Source of the DNA: a virus
DNA length: 27,517 bases
Reading direction: 5' to 3' (one strand)
Virus record (IMG/VR): IMGVR_UViG_3300043772_002033
Location: 1 to 27,517 of that record
In this document: positions 12,147 to 21,119 of the stretch, piece by piece
How the letters are laid out: the number at the start of each line of letters is the position of its first letter
How positions within the stretch are numbered: the first letter of the stretch is position 1
Made by a program: the position numbers and the translations under genes
Notes under the pieces: generated by a model
The model's database searches: none
Told to the model about the DNA's origin: nothing
Seen by the model: the letters and a program-made list of their open reading frames with translations, nothing else

Positions 12147-12176
12147 GTTCCGAAATCGAGCAAAGCACGATATAGT
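12147..12176 (+). promoter_or_regulatory. Predicted promoter of the early cluster
   Basis: The -10 element is TATAGT (12171-12176). The -35 is weak: GTTCCG (12147-12152, 18-nt spacer). The predicted start is at 12182-12183, exactly the foot of the hairpin that opens the leader. The -35 area overlaps TTCCGAAATCGA, a motif found at three other places in the window. Confidence 0.5.
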
Positions 12177-12182
12177 AACAGA

Positions 12183-12203
12183 CGCCCGGAGCGTAACCGG
12201 GCG
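12183..12203 (+). promoter_or_regulatory. 5'-terminal leader hairpin with AGCGUAA loop
   Basis: CGCCCGG and CCGGGCG form a 7-bp stem around AGCGTAA. The loop matches the stem I loop (GCGUAAU) of the three downstream hammerheads, shifted by one base. There is no CUGACGA core here, so this is not a ribozyme. It is followed by the cluster's usual Shine-Dalgarno GAAAGTAGG (12216-12224). Placed at the predicted transcript start, it would cap the primary mRNA with a hairpin. Confidence 0.6.
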
Positions 12204-12231: not shown

Positions 12232-12684
12232 ATGCATACTGAAGCAGTCCGCCGTATCTCTCACTTCACGGCGCAAGCGAACGCGAACCTAGCCCCCGAA
12301 GCTCTCGCCGCGGATCCCTTTACGGATGCCGCCATGCTGAAGCAGAACGGGCTCACGGGTTCTGAGTCTTTCTATATCGGATGCGAAGATGCGTCCGTGA
12401 TCGGGATCGTGTTCGGCACCGCGTACACGGATAACGCGCTGTCTCAGGCGGCGGAATTGGCGGAGGACGGTAAGCACCTTGAGCAATGGATCGCGGAGGA
12501 GGATCCGCGCGGGGTTGACCTTTGGTCGCTCCGTCTTGCGGATACGGGGGAGCGAGTGTGGGCTGTTGTGGTCGGCGATTCGGATCATTGCCGCGATTCC
12601 GTCACTTTCTACGGATGCGCGGACGATGCCTATGCAGCGTTCGAAGACGCGACCGATGCCGACAATTTCGGGGGGAGGGCGTGA
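12232..12684 (+). CDS. Hypothetical early protein (cassette 1, gene 1)
   Basis: Protein of 150 residues from ATG 12232, chosen because GAAAGTAGG lies 7 nt upstream and because the same leader plus ATGCAT start recurs at 13988. An earlier in-frame start at 12145 would sit inside the promoter. It is acidic, with FYIGCEDASVIGIVFG, WIAEEDPRGVDLWSLRL and WAVVVGDSDH segments suggesting an alternating alpha/beta fold. No family recognised. Its stop overlaps the next start (TGATG), so the two are translationally coupled. Host-takeover roles are common for such early genes, but nothing specific can be said. Confidence 0.65.
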   Translation: MHTEAVRRISHFTAQANANLAPEALAADPFTDAAMLKQNGLTGSESFYIGCEDASVIGIVFGTAYTDNALSQAAELAEDGKHLEQWIAEEDPRGVDLWSLRLADTGERVWAVVVGDSDHCRDSVTFYGCADDAYAAFEDATDADNFGGRA

Positions 12685-13061
12685 TGCCGCGTACTTCCGC
12701 AATCGTCACGGATGCCGCCATGATCCGCATGGGGTTTGAGCTTGAGCACACAGGCGGCGGATTCCGTGCCTACGTCATTACCCGGGGTTCGGGTTTGCTG
12801 CTGATGGTTGAGGCAACGCCTACCCATGAGACGCCCCAGGTTCGCCTCCGGGACTCCCATGTATGCGCGGAGTATCCATCGGGAGTCCCGGTAAACCTGG
12901 AACGGATGCCCAAATCGGCCGCGGAGATCCGTGCCGTCCGGGATGCGTTCCGGGATCCGATCAAGGGCATCCGTAGCCGGTTCCCCATTGCCCGTGAATT
13001 GGCGGTGGGTTTGCTCCGTGAGGCATGGGATGAGATGCAACCGGACGAGCGGAGGAAGTGA
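12684..13061 (+). CDS. Hypothetical early protein (cassette 1, gene 2)
   Basis: Protein of 125 residues starting MPRTSAIVTDAAMIRMGFEL. ATG 12684 overlaps the previous stop and has a G-rich Shine-Dalgarno (GGGAGGGC). A beta-rich first half (FRAYVITRGSGLLLMVE) and a helical second half (ARELAVGLLREAWDEMQ) are visible, with no recognised domain. Its TGA (13059-13061) is immediately followed by the first hammerhead ribozyme, so its mRNA would end in the 5' cleavage product. Confidence 0.65.
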   Translation: MPRTSAIVTDAAMIRMGFELEHTGGGFRAYVITRGSGLLLMVEATPTHETPQVRLRDSHVCAEYPSGVPVNLERMPKSAAEIRAVRDAFRDPIKGIRSRFPIARELAVGLLREAWDEMQPDERRK

Positions 13062-13066
13062 CCGCC

Positions 13067-13134
13067 GCCCGAAACGGCTAGGGGTTTCCCGATGCCGTCT
13101 AGCCGGAGCGTAATTCCGGCTACTGACGATGGGC
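13067..13134 (+). ncRNA. Type II hammerhead ribozyme, copy 1
   Basis: Read 5' to 3': GCCC (13067-13070, stem II); GAAAC (13071-13075, conserved core); stem III closed by AC-GGC with GCC-GU; cleavage triplet GUC (13097-13099); stem I TAGCCGGA/TCCGGCTA (13100-13107, 13115-13122) with loop GCGTAAT; CTGACGA (13123-13129, conserved core); one U; GGGC (13131-13134) pairing back to GCCC. Predicted cleavage follows C13099. The upper part of stem III has mismatches. The extra U between CUGACGA and stem II is present in all three copies and is not standard. It lies between a stop codon and the next gene's start 33 nt away. Confidence 0.85.
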
Positions 13135-13166
13135 AGTATTCCCAAGTATGCGAGAAAGTACCGACA

Positions 13167-13595
13167 ATGGGTAAGCGAAACCGAATTAGCCGCCGTGCCG
13201 CCGAAGCCCGCGCGAACCTCTATTCCTCTTTGGGTTCCCTCGGGTTTACCTCGGACGAATCCGATGCGCTCCGGCGCGTCTCGATGGCCCTGCATAGTTG
13301 GGCGGAGCATGAATGCAACGGGACGATTCAGCGGGACGAAGCGACCGGAATACCGTACTTCCACTCTGAATACGATGGGCGGCGTCTCGGTCGCGCCCAG
13401 GATCGGGAACGGGGAGCCCTGCGGAAGCTCGAAACGATCCTGAAGGCTCATCCCGGGGTATCCGCGTACATCCAGGGCGATCCCCGGGGTTGTGCTCTGT
13501 ACCTCTATTCGGCCGCGGAATTGCGCCGCCGATTCCCGTGCGGCCGTTCCATCGATTCGGTCTATTCGTCCGTCGGGGTTCCAGTTTGCGCGTAA
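13167..13595 (+). CDS. Hypothetical early protein (cassette 2, gene 1)
   Basis: Protein of 142 residues from ATG 13167; GAAAGTA lies 6 nt upstream. An earlier in-frame ATG at 13092 would lie inside the ribozyme and is rejected. Starts MGKRNRISRRAAEARANLYSS; the C-terminus (GCALYLYSAAELRRR...IDSVYSSVGVPVCA) resembles the end of a small phage protein family with 'LYL...ID..Y..GV.VC', function unknown. It lies directly after the first hammerhead, so its mRNA would start with the stem I hairpin if cleavage occurs. Confidence 0.65.
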   Translation: MGKRNRISRRAAEARANLYSSLGSLGFTSDESDALRRVSMALHSWAEHECNGTIQRDEATGIPYFHSEYDGRRLGRAQDRERGALRKLETILKAHPGVSAYIQGDPRGCALYLYSAAELRRRFPCGRSIDSVYSSVGVPVCA

Positions 13596-13615
13596 TGTCT
13601 CGATAGTGCTACCAT
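13586..13615 (+). promoter_or_regulatory. Predicted promoter inside cassette 2
   Basis: TTGCGC (13586-13591), an 18-nt spacer and TACCAT (13610-13615). Predicted start near 13622, about 16 nt before the next ATG. The -35 lies in the last codons of the preceding gene. The -10 runs into TTCCGAAATCGA, shared with 12149, 16915 and, with one change, 24279. Confidence 0.4.
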
Positions 13616-13637
13616 TCCGAAATCGAAAGGCATTCCG

Positions 13638-13889
13638 ATGCTCATCCCGTCTTTCCCTACCGTCTCTGATCGCATTTCCCGCATCGTCCGCATGGTCGAT
13701 TCGGGGGAATGGAAATCGTCCCGCATTCCCGCGTACCGGATCCTCGGCGAATGCGAGAAGCTCATCGATAGTCCCCGCATCGTCCAGCTGCTGACTGATG
13801 CGGAACGTCAATGGCTGACCGGCGTGACCGTTTGGATTTCCGAGACGCTGGAGGATTCCGCTCGGGGTGAGGGGGTTTACCTCGACTGA
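13638..13889 (+). CDS. Hypothetical early protein (cassette 2, gene 2)
   Basis: Protein of 83 residues, mostly helical (MLIPSFPTVSDRISRIVRMV, then YRILGECEKLIDSPRIVQLL and WISETLEDSARGEG). ATG 13638 has AAAGG 9 nt upstream. No known family. It may be read from the upstream gene or from its own promoter. Its TGA (13887-13889) is followed after 5 nt by the second hammerhead. Confidence 0.65.
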   Translation: MLIPSFPTVSDRISRIVRMVDSGEWKSSRIPAYRILGECEKLIDSPRIVQLLTDAERQWLTGVTVWISETLEDSARGEGVYLD

Positions 13890-13894
13890 CCGCC

Positions 13895-13958
13895 GCCCGA
13901 AACCGGCGAGACGTTCGCCGGTCTACCCCGAGCGTAATTCGGGGTACTGACGATGGGC
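13895..13958 (+). ncRNA. Type II hammerhead ribozyme, copy 2
   Basis: The cleanest copy. GCCC (13895-13898); GAAA (13899-13902); stem III ACCGGCGA/TCGCCGGT (13902-13909, 13915-13922), perfect 8 bp with loop GACGT; cleavage after C13923 in GUC (13921-13923); stem I TACCCCGA/TCGGGGTA (13924-13931, 13939-13946), perfect 8 bp with loop GCGTAAT; CTGACGA (13947-13953); U; GGGC (13955-13958). Both stems differ in sequence from the other copies but keep pairing, which is covariation. The next start codon is 30 nt downstream. Confidence 0.9.
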
Positions 13959-13987
13959 AGAATTCCCAGGATTGAAAGTAGGTAGGT

Positions 13988-14668
13988 ATGCATTCAGAGA
14001 ACCCGGTCCGAATCCCCGTCCCCGCGCCCGTGCACCGCGCAGCTTCCGCCGAGTCGAAGCGATTCGCGCTCCGATCCACGGCGGCGTTCATTCCCGCCGA
14101 TGGTGATGCCGCCCTGGTCGCTACCGACGGGCGGATGCTGGCCGTCGTGCCGTTCCAATTCCCGAACCCGACGGATCCTGGGGTTCGCGGAGACGATGCC
14201 GGTGCGGTGCGTCTCATTCCGTTTGAGGCTATGCAGGCCGCGACGAAGCGGGGCCGCACCGATTCCGCCGTCTATATGAACGGCACCGCTCGGGTCGAGG
14301 GAGCGAAGGGATCGTCGGATTTCCCCATTGAGGATTTCGGTTCCTTCCCGCCGTGCGCGGACGTGATCCCGGCGGAGCAGCAAATTCGGAAGGGTATCTG
14401 CGTCACCCTGAATCCCGAGCTTCTCGCCCGTCTCGCGGAAGCCCTGGGATCCGGGAACGCGGTTTCCGTCATCGTCGATCCGGAAGGGACTCGACCGATG
14501 GTAGTGATTCCGATGAGCGGTAGTAAGGCTCCCGAGGATGCCGTCGGTCTCCTCATGCCGGTGATGAAGGGTATGGATTCCGGGACAAAGGATGAGGCTT
14601 CCCGCCGATGCGCGAACGCGGTTCGGATCATCCGCGCGGCCGAAGCTCGGAAGGGAGGTTCCCGATGA
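13988..14668 (+). CDS. Putative sliding-clamp-like (DnaN-like) protein
   Basis: Protein of 226 residues. Residues ~20-50 contain AESKRFALRSTAAFIPAD and ALVATDGRMLAVVPF, resembling the 'ATDGHRLA' strand of DNA polymerase III beta clamps. FPIEDFGSFPPCADVIP with ICVTLNPELLARLAEAL resembles the FPDxxxVIP and following helix of the second clamp domain, then VSVIVDPEGTRPMVVIPM. It is shorter than a full three-domain clamp (about 370 residues) and may have two domains. T7-like polymerases normally use thioredoxin, not a clamp, so this would be a phage accessory or a host-clamp mimic. ATG 13988 has GAAAGTAGG upstream; its end overlaps the next gene (ATGA). Confidence 0.55.
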   Translation: MHSENPVRIPVPAPVHRAASAESKRFALRSTAAFIPADGDAALVATDGRMLAVVPFQFPNPTDPGVRGDDAGAVRLIPFEAMQAATKRGRTDSAVYMNGTARVEGAKGSSDFPIEDFGSFPPCADVIPAEQQIRKGICVTLNPELLARLAEALGSGNAVSVIVDPEGTRPMVVIPMSGSKAPEDAVGLLMPVMKGMDSGTKDEASRRCANAVRIIRAAEARKGGSR

Positions 14669-14982
14669 GAACCGTCTCCGTCTTCACGTGCTCGTCTTTC
14701 TATGAAATCCCCGAGGAATGCGTCCGGGATATCTGTCGCCCCGGCCGGAACGATGACGCGGTTTCCTACTGGTCTTCCCGGATCGAATGGGATTCCCTGG
14801 CGGATCCCGATTCCATCCGCGCCGAGCTCAAGGAAACCGGCGGATGGTCCGCGGACGATCTACGGGACGATGACGCGAACCGATGCCGGTTCATTTGGAT
14901 CCTCGCATGGAACGCGCACGACGAGCTGCACGATGAGGATGCCGTGATCGTCCGGAGGATGCCCAGGCACGGGCTCACCTGA
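14665..14982 (+). CDS. Hypothetical acidic early protein (cassette 3, gene 2)
   Basis: Protein of 105 residues from ATG 14665, which overlaps the previous stop (ATGA) and has GGGAGG upstream. Starts MRTVSVFTCSSFYEIPEECV; very acidic, with many Asp (WSADDLRDDDANRCRF, AHDELHDEDAV). Such strongly acidic small proteins in phages can act as DNA mimics, but no family is recognised. Its TGA is immediately followed by the third hammerhead. Confidence 0.65.
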   Translation: MRTVSVFTCSSFYEIPEECVRDICRPGRNDDAVSYWSSRIEWDSLADPDSIRAELKETGGWSADDLRDDDANRCRFIWILAWNAHDELHDEDAVIVRRMPRHGLT

Positions 14983-14987
14983 TCGCC

Positions 14988-15066
14988 GCCCGAAACGGTC
15001 CCTGGGTTCCCCCGAGGATCCCGGGGCCGTCCGGCGGGAGCGTCATTCCCGCCGCTGACGATGGGC
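14988..15066 (+). ncRNA. Type II hammerhead ribozyme, copy 3
   Basis: GCCC (14988-14991); GAAAC (14992-14996); stem III ACGGTCCC/GGGGCCGT (14995-15002, 15023-15030), 8 bp with one G-U pair and a long, partly self-pairing loop; cleavage after C15031 in GUC (15029-15031); stem I CGGCGGGA/TCCCGCCG (15032-15039, 15047-15054), perfect 8 bp with loop GCGTCAT; CTGACGA (15055-15061); U; GGGC (15063-15066). Same context as the other copies: directly after a TGA and 30 nt before the next ATG. Confidence 0.88.
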
Positions 15067-15095: not shown

Positions 15096-15302
15096 ATGAG
15101 AAACAGAGAACGCGCCGCACGTGCCGATGCCGTGCTGAACAGATGCGCCGAGGAATCCGAGTGTGACCCGGGGGCTACTGCCCTGGCGGACCTACTTGCC
15201 GATGCCATGCATTTGCTCGGGCGCGAAGCCGTGCTGGATTCCGTCCGTCGGGCCGAGGCTCACCACCAGGCGGAGCTCGAAGAGGAAGGGGGTGCGTCGT
15301 GA
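15096..15302 (+). CDS. Hypothetical small early protein (cassette 4, gene 1)
   Basis: Protein of 68 residues, helical, starting MRNRERAARADAVLNRCAEE and ending in an acidic tail. ATG 15096 is preferred over the GTG one codon earlier; GAAAGTAGGAA (15082-15092) is the Shine-Dalgarno. No known family. Its stop overlaps the next GTG start. Confidence 0.6.
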   Translation: MRNRERAARADAVLNRCAEESECDPGATALADLLADAMHLLGREAVLDSVRRAEAHHQAELEEEGGAS

Positions 15303-15981: not shown

Positions 15982-16063
15982 ATCGCCAACGCACGGCGAT
16001 AGAATTCCAGTTCCTACTTTCGGCCCCTCCCGGGATTACGCCCCGGTCGAGGGGCTTTCATTT
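15982..16063 (+). ncRNA. Candidate 3'-end antisense RNA against the early leaders
   Basis: Three parts are seen: hairpin ATCGCC-aacgcac-GGCGAT (15982-16000); a single-stranded stretch containing TTCCTACTTTC (16011-16021), the exact reverse complement of the Shine-Dalgarno GAAAGTAGGAA at 15082-15092 and 22762-22772 (9 of 11 at 12216 and 13974); and a terminator hairpin with loop ATTACGC (16035-16041), the exact complement of the GCGTAAT loop of hammerheads 1 and 2. The order fits antiparallel pairing. It could be released from the 3' end of the early mRNA or simply be part of that UTR. No dedicated promoter is evident. The sRNA role is inference. Confidence 0.4.
16023..16063 (+). terminator. 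Rho-independent terminator of the early cluster
   Basis: GCCCCTC (16023-16029) pairs with GAGGGGC (16049-16055), extended by CCGGG/CCCGG (16030-16034, 16042-16046) with a 2-nt bulge; loop ATTACGC; followed by TTTCATTT. It lies 56 nt after the last gene of the cluster. Confidence 0.75.
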
Positions 16064-17372: not shown

Positions 17373-18428
17373 ATGAAGATCACCAAGCGAGGCGGGTCGT
17401 GGCAGGCAAGCGTCCAGCACGGCAAGAAGAGGATCCGCCTCTCGTTCAGGACGGAGCAGGAGGCCCGGGTCTGGGCCGCCGAGGCCGAGCTTGCGATTGC
17501 CAAGGGCATCGCGCCGCAGACGAGGCCGTCTGCACCGGGGACCACGCAGTCGGGGCGAACGCTCCTTGAGCTCTACCGGGTGACGCATGAGACGCGGTGG
17601 TCGTCGTGCTGGAGCACGGCGATGTCCGACCTTGGTAACAAGGTCGTCCAGGAGCTCGGGGCGGACTCGCTGATCGACGAGATCGACTTCGGGCGCATCG
17701 CGTCCTGGATCTCCGACCTCAAGGCGCGATCCCTCTCGCAGTCCACGGTGAACCGCCGGCTTGCCGCGTTGAGCTCCATGTTCACCACGGCGGTCAGCCT
17801 CGGGTGGATGAAGGAGAAGCCGAAGATCCCGTTCGGCAAGGAGCGCAAGCGGGAACGCCGCTACCTCACGCACGACGAGGAGGAGGAGATCCTCGAGCGG
17901 CTCCGCGGCACCCGGGAGTGGGGCCTCGCGGTGGTCGCCGCGGACACGGGGCTACGCCTCGGTGAGCTCCTCAACCTCAAGTGGAGGAACGTGCGCCCGG
18001 ACTCGGTGACGGTGGAGAAGTCCAAGAACGGCAACCCGCGCACGGTGCCGCTGACCTCCAGGAGCCGGGAGATCCTCTCCTCGATGCCCAGGGACCGGGA
18101 GGGTCCGTTCGCCCGGATGGACAGGTTCGAGTGCAGCCGCAAGTACAAGGCGGCCGTGCTGTCCGCCGGCATCGCCGACGACTCGGTGGTCTTCCATTCC
18201 CTCCGCCATACCTGTGCCTCCCGGCTGGTGACGATGGGGGTGGACATCATGCGGGTGAAGACCTGGATGGGGCACAAGTCGATCTCGACGACGATGATTT
18301 ATGCCCACTTGGCCCCGAACTCGCTATCGGACATTGTGACACGCCTCGACGACTGCACAAGACATAAACTCCTGTGCGACGGACGTGACACAAGTTGTGT
18401 CAAAATGACACAGAACCGAGCATCGTGA
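17373..18428 (+). CDS. int: Phage tyrosine integrase
   Basis: Protein of 351 residues. An arm-binding N-terminus (KRGGSWQASVQHGKKRIRLSF) is followed by a helical core-binding domain (about 65-165) and the catalytic domain with R195 (TGLRLGELLNL), a likely lysine in EKSKNGNPRTVPL, H275-xx-R278 (HSLRHTCASRL), H301 (MGHKS) and the nucleophile Y310 (MIYAHL). All key residues are present. AGGAAG precedes ATG 17373. It should recombine attP with a host tRNA-Leu gene: attP lies 24 nt after its stop. The int-attP-RNA polymerase order matches integrase-carrying marine podoviruses such as Prochlorococcus phage P-SSP7. Confidence 0.93.
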   Translation: MKITKRGGSWQASVQHGKKRIRLSFRTEQEARVWAAEAELAIAKGIAPQTRPSAPGTTQSGRTLLELYRVTHETRWSSCWSTAMSDLGNKVVQELGADSLIDEIDFGRIASWISDLKARSLSQSTVNRRLAALSSMFTTAVSLGWMKEKPKIPFGKERKRERRYLTHDEEEEILERLRGTREWGLAVVAADTGLRLGELLNLKWRNVRPDSVTVEKSKNGNPRTVPLTSRSREILSSMPRDREGPFARMDRFECSRKYKAAVLSAGIADDSVVFHSLRHTCASRLVTMGVDIMRVKTWMGHKSISTTMIYAHLAPNSLSDIVTRLDDCTRHKLLCDGRDTSCVKMTQNRAS

Positions 18429-18520: not shown

Positions 18521-18707
18521 CAGTTGCATCGGATGCGGTGCATTCGGCTGTGTCTTGTGGAAATCGGCACGTGTGTCAATGTGTCGAAATGCGGACGGTC
18601 GCAAGTGTGAGGCTCAATTCTGACACAGGTGTGTGTCAGGAATCGTGGTCGGTCGTGATGGCGTGACACAACTCAACCGGGTCAAGGACGACCCAAGGAC
18701 AAGGATC

Positions 18708-21119
18708 ATGGCGAAGATCAGCCAGAGGGAGCTCGACCTCGAGGGCGTCGAGCGGGGCAAGCGGAAGTACTACCGTCAGATCCGTCTTGCGATGGACAAG
18801 GGTCACGAATCGACAACCAACTGGGGGGCACGGATGACGCAGTCGGCCATCCTGCCGTACTCGGGGCTGCTGTCCGAGACGATGGAGAAGGACACCGGGA
18901 TCGGGGCTCGGCTCCTTGCGACTCTCGGGCTCGAGCCGACGGTCATCGCCATGATGGCGTTCCAGTCCCTCCTCGACGGATCCTCGAAGGGCAAGACGTT
19001 CACCCGGGCCTGCATCGAGGCCGCCCGTTCGGTTCAGCAGGAGGCCATCGTGAAGGCCCTCAAGGACACCGACAAGGACCGCTTCCTCCGGTTCAAGGAC
19101 TTCGTCGCCGGTCGCTCCGACTCGCGCAAGCTCCGGAACATCAAGGAGATGATGCAGAAGACGGTCCCGGAGCTGGTGGACCAGTTCGCTTGGAGCGACG
19201 AGGAGTGCCTCAAGGCCGGGTACGTCCTCGCCATGACTGCCATCGAGGCCACGGGGCTGCTTGAGCGCATCACCTTCAAGCGGTCCGCCCGGTCCTCCGT
19301 GTCCACCCTCGTCCTGACCAAGGACGCCTGGGACTACATCCACAAGGCGATGAGCCACGCGGAGATGCTTCACCCGATCAAGCTCCCGATGGTGGTCCCG
19401 CCCCGGAAGTGGGTGAACCCCGACGACGGCGGGTACGAGCAGGGCGTCGGGGACTGCCTCGTCCGGGGATCCACCAAGGTTGCCAAGGCATCCCACACGA
19501 AGGAGGCGATGCCCCTCGTCTACGAGTCGATCAACCTCATCCAGCACACCCCCTTCCGGGTGAACGCCGGGGTCCTCGCCGCCGCCCTCCAAGTGTTTGA
19601 GCGTCGGATCCCCATCGGTGACCTCGATGTCCACGACGAGCTTCCCATGCCGGTCGCGCCGCCGAGCCTGAAGACGGACTTCAAGCTCAGGACCGACGAG
19701 CAGATCCGGACCACCCGGCTCTACTTCCTCGATGCCTCCCGGGTCGCCGAGTACAACCGACGGATCAACTCCCGCCGCATCGGGGTGCTCCAGACGTTGA
19801 ACCTTGCCCGTCGATTCGCCGAGGAGAAGGACCTCCGGTTCTTCCACGCGGCTGCGCTCGACTTCCGGGGGCGGTTCTACTGTCAGGCCACGGGACTGTC
19901 CCACCAGGGCAGCGACCTTCAGCGGGGCCTCGTCGAGTTCGGCCTCGGGCACGTCATCCCGAAGCAGGGGGAGGCGATCCAGGCATGGCTCCGCCACGGG
20001 GCAACGGTGCTCGGCAAGAAGGGCACCCTCGAGGAACGGGCCAATGCCGCCGCCGCCTTGATCCGCTCGGGCGAGGCTGACGCGATTGCCCGGGACCCCG
20101 CCGGTACCGCCTCACTCTGGGGCAAGGCGGACGAACCCTTCTCGTACCTCGCGTGGTGCCTCGACGTGAAGAACGTCCGGGAGGGGAAGCCGTCTCACCT
20201 CATGGTCGCCGTGGACGGATCCTGCAACGGGATCCAGGTGCTCTCGCTGCTGCTCCGGGACGAGGTGGGTGCGGCGTCCGTGAACATCATCCCGAGCAAC
20301 AAGCCCTCGGACATCTACCAGGCCGTCGCCGACCGGACGATGGTTCGGATCGAGGAGGCGGTTCGCCGAGGGGAGACCTACGCGGCGGAGTGGAAGGCAC
20401 TCGGGGTATCCCGGGGCATGGTCAAGCGTCCCGTCATGTGCCTGCCCTACAGCATCACGCCCCGCTCCGCGATGATGTACCTCAAGGAGGCGTACACGGA
20501 GATGCACCGCGACGGCCCGTGGCCCGACCCGGCGCGTCCCTGCGGCTTCCTCATCCGGAAGGTGTGGCCGAGCATCGGGGAGATCGTCGTGAAGGGCAGC
20601 GAGTTCCTCGCGTGGGCCCGTGCCGCCGGCAGGATCATTACGTCCCACGGCATCCATCCCATGTGGGTGACCCCGGACGGGTTCACGGTTCAGCAGTCGT
20701 ACTACACCTACGACCCGAGCCGCGTCCGCACGACCCTCGGACGGGAGGCGCACATCTGGCAGATCCGCAACAAGACCGCCAAGATCAACCGCCGCAAGCA
20801 CATCTCCGGGCTCGTCCCAAACCTCGTCCATTCCCTCGACGCGACCGCAGCACGTGAGACGGCTCGGCGACTCCACGCGAAGAAGGTCCCGGACACGGCA
20901 TTCGTCCACGACTCGTACCTCGTCCACGCGGCGTTCCAGCCCGTCCTCGCGGCCGAGCTGCGCGAGGCGTGGGTGTCCACGTTCTCCGGCGATCCGCTCG
21001 GGGATTGGGTGAGGCAGATTGAGTCGCAGCTCCCGGTCGGCGTGAAGCTCCCGCCTCCGCCGGCATACGGGAACCTGGACATCGGCGTCATCAGGCAGAG
21101 CAAGTATTTCTTTTCGTGA
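18708..21119 (+). CDS. T7-type single-subunit DNA-directed RNA polymerase
   Basis: Protein of 803 residues from ATG 18708 (T7: 883). This start has AAGGA 8 nt upstream; the frame is open to a GTG at 18633, but that would begin inside the TGTGTCA array. Motif A is VDGSCNGIQVLS with D503; motif B has K573 in VKRPVMCLPYS; motif C is FVHDSYLVH with D735; PNLVHSLDATAARET matches the T7 PNFVHSQDGSH segment. It transcribes the phage genome independently of host polymerase. Its cognate promoter could not be identified with confidence in this window. The gene directly follows attP, so prophage insertion would place it at one prophage end. Confidence 0.95.
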   Translation: MAKISQRELDLEGVERGKRKYYRQIRLAMDKGHESTTNWGARMTQSAILPYSGLLSETMEKDTGIGARLLATLGLEPTVIAMMAFQSLLDGSSKGKTFTRACIEAARSVQQEAIVKALKDTDKDRFLRFKDFVAGRSDSRKLRNIKEMMQKTVPELVDQFAWSDEECLKAGYVLAMTAIEATGLLERITFKRSARSSVSTLVLTKDAWDYIHKAMSHAEMLHPIKLPMVVPPRKWVNPDDGGYEQGVGDCLVRGSTKVAKASHTKEAMPLVYESINLIQHTPFRVNAGVLAAALQVFERRIPIGDLDVHDELPMPVAPPSLKTDFKLRTDEQIRTTRLYFLDASRVAEYNRRINSRRIGVLQTLNLARRFAEEKDLRFFHAAALDFRGRFYCQATGLSHQGSDLQRGLVEFGLGHVIPKQGEAIQAWLRHGATVLGKKGTLEERANAAAALIRSGEADAIARDPAGTASLWGKADEPFSYLAWCLDVKNVREGKPSHLMVAVDGSCNGIQVLSLLLRDEVGAASVNIIPSNKPSDIYQAVADRTMVRIEEAVRRGETYAAEWKALGVSRGMVKRPVMCLPYSITPRSAMMYLKEAYTEMHRDGPWPDPARPCGFLIRKVWPSIGEIVVKGSEFLAWARAAGRIITSHGIHPMWVTPDGFTVQQSYYTYDPSRVRTTLGREAHIWQIRNKTAKINRRKHISGLVPNLVHSLDATAARETARRLHAKKVPDTAFVHDSYLVHAAFQPVLAAELREAWVSTFSGDPLGDWVRQIESQLPVGVKLPPPPAYGNLDIGVIRQSKYFFS

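Follow-up and report, generated by a model that had tools for sequence, protein, structure and literature searches.

The early region of a T7-like temperate phage

The stretch of viral DNA analysed here (IMGVR_UViG_3300043772_002033, 27,517 nucleotides, hereafter the window) belongs to a T7-like temperate phage, as judged by its gene families (Pfam, PHROG). These include a single-subunit RNA polymerase, a Gp2.5-like SSB, a RusA-like resolvase, a T7-type primase-helicase, a DNA polymerase and a terminase, together with internal virion proteins, tail proteins and an integrase whose gene is placed between the early genes and the RNA polymerase gene. The gene order, in which small early genes are followed by RNA polymerase, SSB, endonuclease, primase-helicase and DNA polymerase (PHROG and Pfam), meets the criterion of a T7-like early region (Autographivirales). 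A preliminary description, made from the sequence alone, had proposed a T7-like phage and an early-operon location, and both held on gene content. The RNA polymerase shares only ~30% identity with those of cultured phages, and a host search with it across ~1,180 genomes (an alphaproteobacterial, acidobacterial and actinobacterial group) recovered just distant relatives (28–35% identity). Features of the early region are collected in Table 1.

Table 1. Features of the early region and the adjoining genes, in coordinates of the window.
Feature	Position	Strand	Basis and remarks
Promoter-like element of the early operon, TTCCGA-17-TATAGT	12148..12176	+	-10-like hexamer then hairpin in lineage A; -35 match weak in the window
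Leader hairpin, CGCCCGG-AGCGTAA-CCGGGCG	12183..12203	+	Predicted transcription start, 28 nt before first early ATG; loop as in ribozyme stem I
Early gene 1, 150 aa, no assigned function	12232..12684	+	ORF, SD-like GAAAGTAGG
Early gene 2, 125 aa, no assigned function	12684..13061	+	ORF
Hammerhead 1, type II, CGCC leader	13063..13134	+	Core, covariation, fold; predicted cut 13099/13100
Hammerhead 1 stems	Stem II 13067-13070/13131-13134; stem III from 13075 (13075-13097); stem I 13100-13107/13115-13122		
Early gene 3, 142 aa, no assigned function	13167..13595	+	ORF
Early gene 4, 83 aa, no assigned function	13638..13889	+	Gene-order table; its lineage relatives directly precede a hammerhead
Hammerhead 2, type II	13891..13958	+	Rfam RF02276 36.4 bits, E 4e-4; covariation, fold; predicted cut 13923/13924
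Early gene 5, 226 aa	13988..14668	+	Weak phrog_3007 match, no Pfam match
Early gene 6, 105 aa, no assigned function	14665..14982	+	ORF
Hammerhead 3, type II	14984..15066	+	Rfam RF02276 27.7 bits; covariation, fold; predicted cut 15031/15032
Early gene 7, 68 aa, no assigned function	15096..15302	+	ORF; GTG 15093 a possible alternative start
Terminator-like hairpin and T-rich tail, 3' of the early genes	16023..16063	+	Terminator scan; present in 8/10 relatives checked
Integrase (tyrosine recombinase)	17373..18428	+	Pfam PF00589, phrog_1
T7-like single-subunit RNA polymerase	18633..21119	+	phrog_414, E 9e-172

Early gene 5 carries an ATDGRMLA motif and may encode a sliding-clamp-like protein, an inference from sequence alone. 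The ATDGRMLAVVPF motif in this gene resembles bacterial sliding clamps; the gene matched a single family, and only weakly, namely a PHROG named RusA-like.

Three type II hammerheads lie between the early genes

Three elements of the early region (13067-13134, 13895-13958 and 14988-15066) share the arrangement GCCC-GAAAC-stem III-GUC-stem I-CUGACGA-U-GGGC, which is the type II order. The core nucleotides (CUGANGA, GAAA and the UH before the cut) are all present in that order in 3/3 copies, and C17, after which the cut is expected, falls at 13099, 13923 and 15031. The core and spacing pattern was found at these three places only in the window, and the reversed pattern at none. In each copy 5 nt separate the upstream stop codon from GCCC, and 29–32 nt separate GGGC from the next ATG, in front of which stands a GAAAGTAGG-like ribosome site. 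In all three copies one additional U separates A9 from stem II (CUGACGA-U-GGGC).

Most of what the preliminary description had claimed for these elements was upheld. Its three type II hammerheads in early-gene spacers held on coordinates, core, covariation, fold and relatives, and its three cuts held as positions, with C17 at each, cleavage itself being inferred. Its statement that each element starts within 6 nt of a stop codon becomes 5 nt exactly, while its 30–33 nt to the next start needed correction to the range above, with a possible GTG start for the third downstream gene (Table 1). It gave the core as CUGACGA-GGGC and left the inserted U unmentioned.

The minimum-energy fold was the hammerhead junction in 3/3 window copies. 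The check that the preliminary description had suggested, a search with the Rfam covariance model, gave matches to RF02276 (Hammerhead_II) for copies 2 and 3 below the gathering score of 37 and left copy 1 unreported; this threshold is a curated cut-off and not a biochemical definition. The inserted U probably accounts for part of the low scores, since the only relative lacking it scores 38.7 bits against the same model. With our own covariance model (R1), hammerhead 1 scored 103 bits, although it was among the sequences from which R1 was built. A weak R1 match inside early gene 2 (12900-12985, 15.7 bits) was treated as chance.

We then asked how the stems vary among relatives, using a pattern scan of viral contigs that fixed the core and stem II and left stems I and III free, and which returned relatives with 1–4 copies. 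Across 27 distinct lineage-A sequences (lineage A being the window's relatives, defined below), 99.6% of pair cells in stems I and III were paired, and 76 double changes were observed vs 23 in shuffles, so that the covariation claimed for these stems held; pairing dropped to 30–45% once the structure was slid by 1–3 columns. Stem II, the core, the CGC leader and the GCG of loop I were nearly invariant across these sequences. Being invariant, stem II has no covariation support of its own, and a pairing of the CGC leader with the GCG loop is possible but almost invariant, so that covariation neither supports nor opposes a leader-loop contact. The canonical type II pseudoknot between loop I and the 3' tail was not evident. 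CUGA-GA, GAAA and the GUC before the cut stay near-invariant while the stems vary freely. Together, core, order, covariation, fold, relatives and gene content support the reading of the three elements as type II hammerheads, their self-cleavage being inferred.

Hammerheads precede the RNA polymerase gene throughout lineage A

Lineage A comprises relatives with an RNA polymerase ~69–100% identical to that of the window, a locus being counted if its contig extends 2.5 kb or more ahead of the polymerase. Hammerheads were found before the RNA polymerase gene in 12/12 such loci (26 copies by the strict scanner), with none downstream in 108 kb and none on the reverse strand. In a 44-kb lineage-A relative, the model's four strong copies were confined to the region before the polymerase. 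Relatives differ in the genes that stand between the ribozymes but share a constant gene ahead of the cluster; in nearly every one, a gene of 82 aa precedes one hammerhead. The U insertion after A9 is present in nearly all lineage-A copies. The only copy seen without it (locus L083, 5148-5205) offers a natural control for that base. One pattern match, in locus L023, had no hammerhead stems and was rejected as chance.

A leader hairpin with the loop of ribozyme stem I

In lineage A, a -10-like hexamer precedes the first early gene and a hairpin follows it 4–9 nt later (12/12 examined loci covering the region). The loop of this leader hairpin is (A/G)GCGTAA, and its stems differ among the 12 loci yet stay paired. 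The stem I loop that the downstream ribozyme products would carry is GCGUAAU or GCGUCAU. The loop is kept where no ribozyme is present, and this conservation outside any ribozyme is the best clue to function. With a stem I-loop hairpin predicted at the start of the primary transcript, promoter and ribozyme would yield the same kind of 5' end in lineage A, a prediction that rests on weak promoter calls.

On the minus strand, the terminator-like hairpin (16030-16046 in 16023-16055) is a hairpin with a GGCGTAAT loop, after which comes GAAAGTAGG; the early mRNAs have this same leader module. It was seen in 8/10 relatives checked, with no obvious minus-strand gene.

A second soil lineage and the pelagiphages

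Hammerheads were also found in a second soil lineage (lineage B), whose RNA polymerase is ~25% identical to that of lineage A; in a tree of 51 polymerases the two lie far apart on long branches. Type II hammerheads lie 3.1–4.1 kb before the polymerase in 7/7 lineage-B loci, and their stems covary independently of lineage A (10 sequences). The extra U is present in these copies too, including a second one whose stem II differs and which was recovered once stem II was left free. The leader hairpin that marks lineage A was not seen in lineage B. Hammerhead 1 and the lineage-B copies share, above the base of stem III, a UA/GAU internal loop, despite the great divergence of these phages.

The third lineage, Pelagivirus (HTVC019P-type pelagiphages), was first noticed through a few type II members, and its loci were gathered by polymerase rather than by ribozyme. 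We searched them with a structural scanner that covers all three hammerhead types in the consensus core only, so that an absence of variants is not shown by it. Hammerheads precede the polymerase in 41/44 loci with at least 2.5 kb upstream (n = 139 copies, of which 81 are type I, 27 are type II and 31 are type III), whereas the 606 kb downstream and the reverse strand have none. Cultured carriers include Eistla, HTVC031P, HTVC168P, HTVC109P, HTVC022P, HTVC019P, HTVC304P and HTVC021P, and in annotated cultured pelagiphages nearly all copies lie in intergenic gaps; many type I copies have the upstream stop codon inside stem I. The core is canonical, without the inserted U, and five copies that were folded gave the expected junction. 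Rfam detected no pelagiphage copy at the gathering threshold; at E up to 1 it reported three as Hammerhead_II and one as RAGATH-1-hammerhead.

Two side observations concern these genomes. A type I hammerhead in HTVC109P (L304, 1105-1164), with a weak match to the Rfam RAGATH-1 hammerhead, overlaps an annotated gene start that is perhaps misannotated. In many Pelagivirus early regions (L159-L310) the order of types looks regular, with type III nearest the start of the region and types I and II then between genes.

Outside these lineages, the structural scanner found hammerheads with a consensus core in 0/15 other T7-like loci and in none of the stretches that were searched in twelve cultured T7-like phages, among them T7 itself. 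Earlier RF02276 and R1 searches of 50 T7-like records gave no convincing matches; these had missed a true copy in a covered record (L167), and were therefore replaced by the structural scanner and not counted as negative evidence.

For the loci examined, then, hammerheads are near-universal before the RNA polymerase gene in at least three divergent T7-like lineages (A, B and Pelagivirus), and all copies lie on the coding strand. The preliminary description understated this scope, which takes in cultured pelagiphages.

Chance or artefact is all but excluded as an explanation. In its favour, hammerhead-like cores are short, and a pattern scan of bacterial genomes, which located no prophage host, gave 46 loose-pattern matches, of which two passed the stem filter, both with implausible cores or stems. 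Against it stand the strict strand and position bias, the covariation, and the absence of any structural match in 3.3 Mb of shuffled sequence.

A second alternative is that the elements owe their conservation to the hairpins only, as stabilisers of mRNA 5' or 3' ends or as protein-binding sites, with a core left weak or inactive by the inserted U. The recurrence of the stem I loop in a stand-alone leader hairpin speaks for it, as does the U insertion in lineages A and B. However, the three core segments are near-invariant while the stems change, as catalysis demands, and Pelagivirus copies have a canonical core with no U; we consider this very unlikely.

We give similarly little weight to the possibility that the elements are recombination junctions for swapping early-gene cassettes, cleavage being incidental. 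It would fit the differing inter-ribozyme genes among relatives and the constant gene before the cluster. Yet the stem sequences differ within one genome, which lowers homology, and Pelagivirus mixes three hammerhead types of unlike sequence in the same place.

Proposed processing of the early transcript

Over these alternatives we favour a role in transcript processing. In T7, host RNase III processes the early operon by cutting at hairpins that lie between its genes, and in our proposal the hammerheads would fill the slot that these sites hold. It is likely that the window hammerheads cut the polycistronic early transcript between genes; cleavage, the transcript units and any benefit to stability or translation are inferred. 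Structure, covariation, location, lineage-wide conservation and the matching leader hairpin are the shown support for this reading. The three cuts would fall just after the upstream stop and ~30 nt before the next start, each leaving an upstream 3' end behind hairpin III (a 2',3'-cyclic phosphate) and a downstream mRNA that begins, with a 5'-OH, at the first base pair of hairpin I. The mRNAs named in the preliminary description (12232+12684, 13167+13638, 13988+14665, and 15096 onward) are likewise still inferred. In lineage A, the GCGUAA loop is common to hairpin I and the predicted primary-transcript hairpin, so that all early mRNAs would, after cutting, have an identical kind of 5'-terminal hairpin and leader. 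The core variants described in PMC3088659, as far as its text goes, do not include the U inserted after A9, which could slow a cleavage that is itself inferred.

The 5'-hairpin idea fits lineage A (and types II and III) and not all copies, because the type I copies of Pelagivirus leave no 5' hairpin. The notion that type II is needed since it leaves hairpins at both ends is weakened, as Pelagivirus uses types I and III too.

The ribozymes could instead be active but mainly regulatory, the ribosome that ends the upstream gene covering the ribozyme; cutting would then be tied to translation and would tune how the neighbouring genes are expressed or how fast their mRNAs decay. The ribozyme has a stop codon only a few nt away, or inside stem I in many type I copies, and the distance to the next start is fairly constant. 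However, the same spacing would result from the compactness of phage genomes and from cuts having to fall between genes. Neither an alternative fold nor a ligand pocket was seen, and we regard this explanation as unlikely.

Returning to processing, a bolder reading is that several T7-like lineages, including abundant HTVC019P-type pelagiphages, replace enzyme processing with hammerhead arrays, and that in the soil lineage the cut recreates the promoter-made 5' hairpin leader, giving one standard 5' end per early mRNA. This could as readily be wrong as right.

Relation to known hammerheads

Clustered prophage hammerheads flanking single genes or gene blocks have been described, with processing of a long transcript proposed (Perreault et al., 2011, PLoS Comput Biol; PMC3088659); tandem prophage sets cleave in vitro, and for one set cleavage was seen in E. 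coli. The window resembles these clusters in that several hammerheads flank genes or short blocks in an integrase-bearing phage genome. It differs in that gene identities there are not constant, whereas here the position before a T7-like RNA polymerase is constant in three lineages; the soil lineages also have the inserted core U, and in lineage A the post-cleavage leader would match the primary leader. The claim in the preliminary description that a repeated set partitioning a T7-like early operon was not known to be described held only in part, as clustering and the processing idea were published in 2011.

Other systems are alike in part. The window copies share the strand order, core, open stem II and hairpins I and III of Rfam RF02276 and differ from it in the U after A9, a 4-bp stem II, sub-threshold scores and a tertiary contact that is different or unrecognised. 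As at the T7 RNase III sites, the predicted cuts lie between early genes of a polycistronic transcript and leave hairpins at the new ends, whereas here the RNA itself, not a host enzyme, would do the cutting, and no hammerhead was found in the stretch of T7 that was searched. The HF1/HF2 halovirus hammerhead likewise stands in front of an early gene, and a mapped 5' end of an early transcript coincides with it, near the cut (PMC3088659); unlike those described here, it is a single variant copy in an archaeal virus that is not T7-like. Bacterial hammerheads are enriched near Mu-like phage genes, for a reason stated to be unknown (PMC10085705). In the open-licence literature searched (the 2011 figure and data set excluded), we found no paper linking hammerheads to Autographiviridae or pelagiphages. 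The general principle of clustered phage hammerheads and transcript processing is not new; what is new, as far as we searched, is the scale and the place.

The purpose of bacterial and phage hammerheads has been open since their discovery, and here they are a fixed part of a T7-like early operon. As carriers include cultured phages of SAR11, among the most abundant ocean bacteria, the question is testable: the predicted cut of HTVC022P lies at MH598798.1 2353/2354, and RNA-seq data that follow HTVC022P infection over time are public (BioProject PRJNA1253180; PMC12753301). If the proposal is true, these hammerheads would give phages common in the ocean a way of processing that needs only RNA, in place of RNase III.
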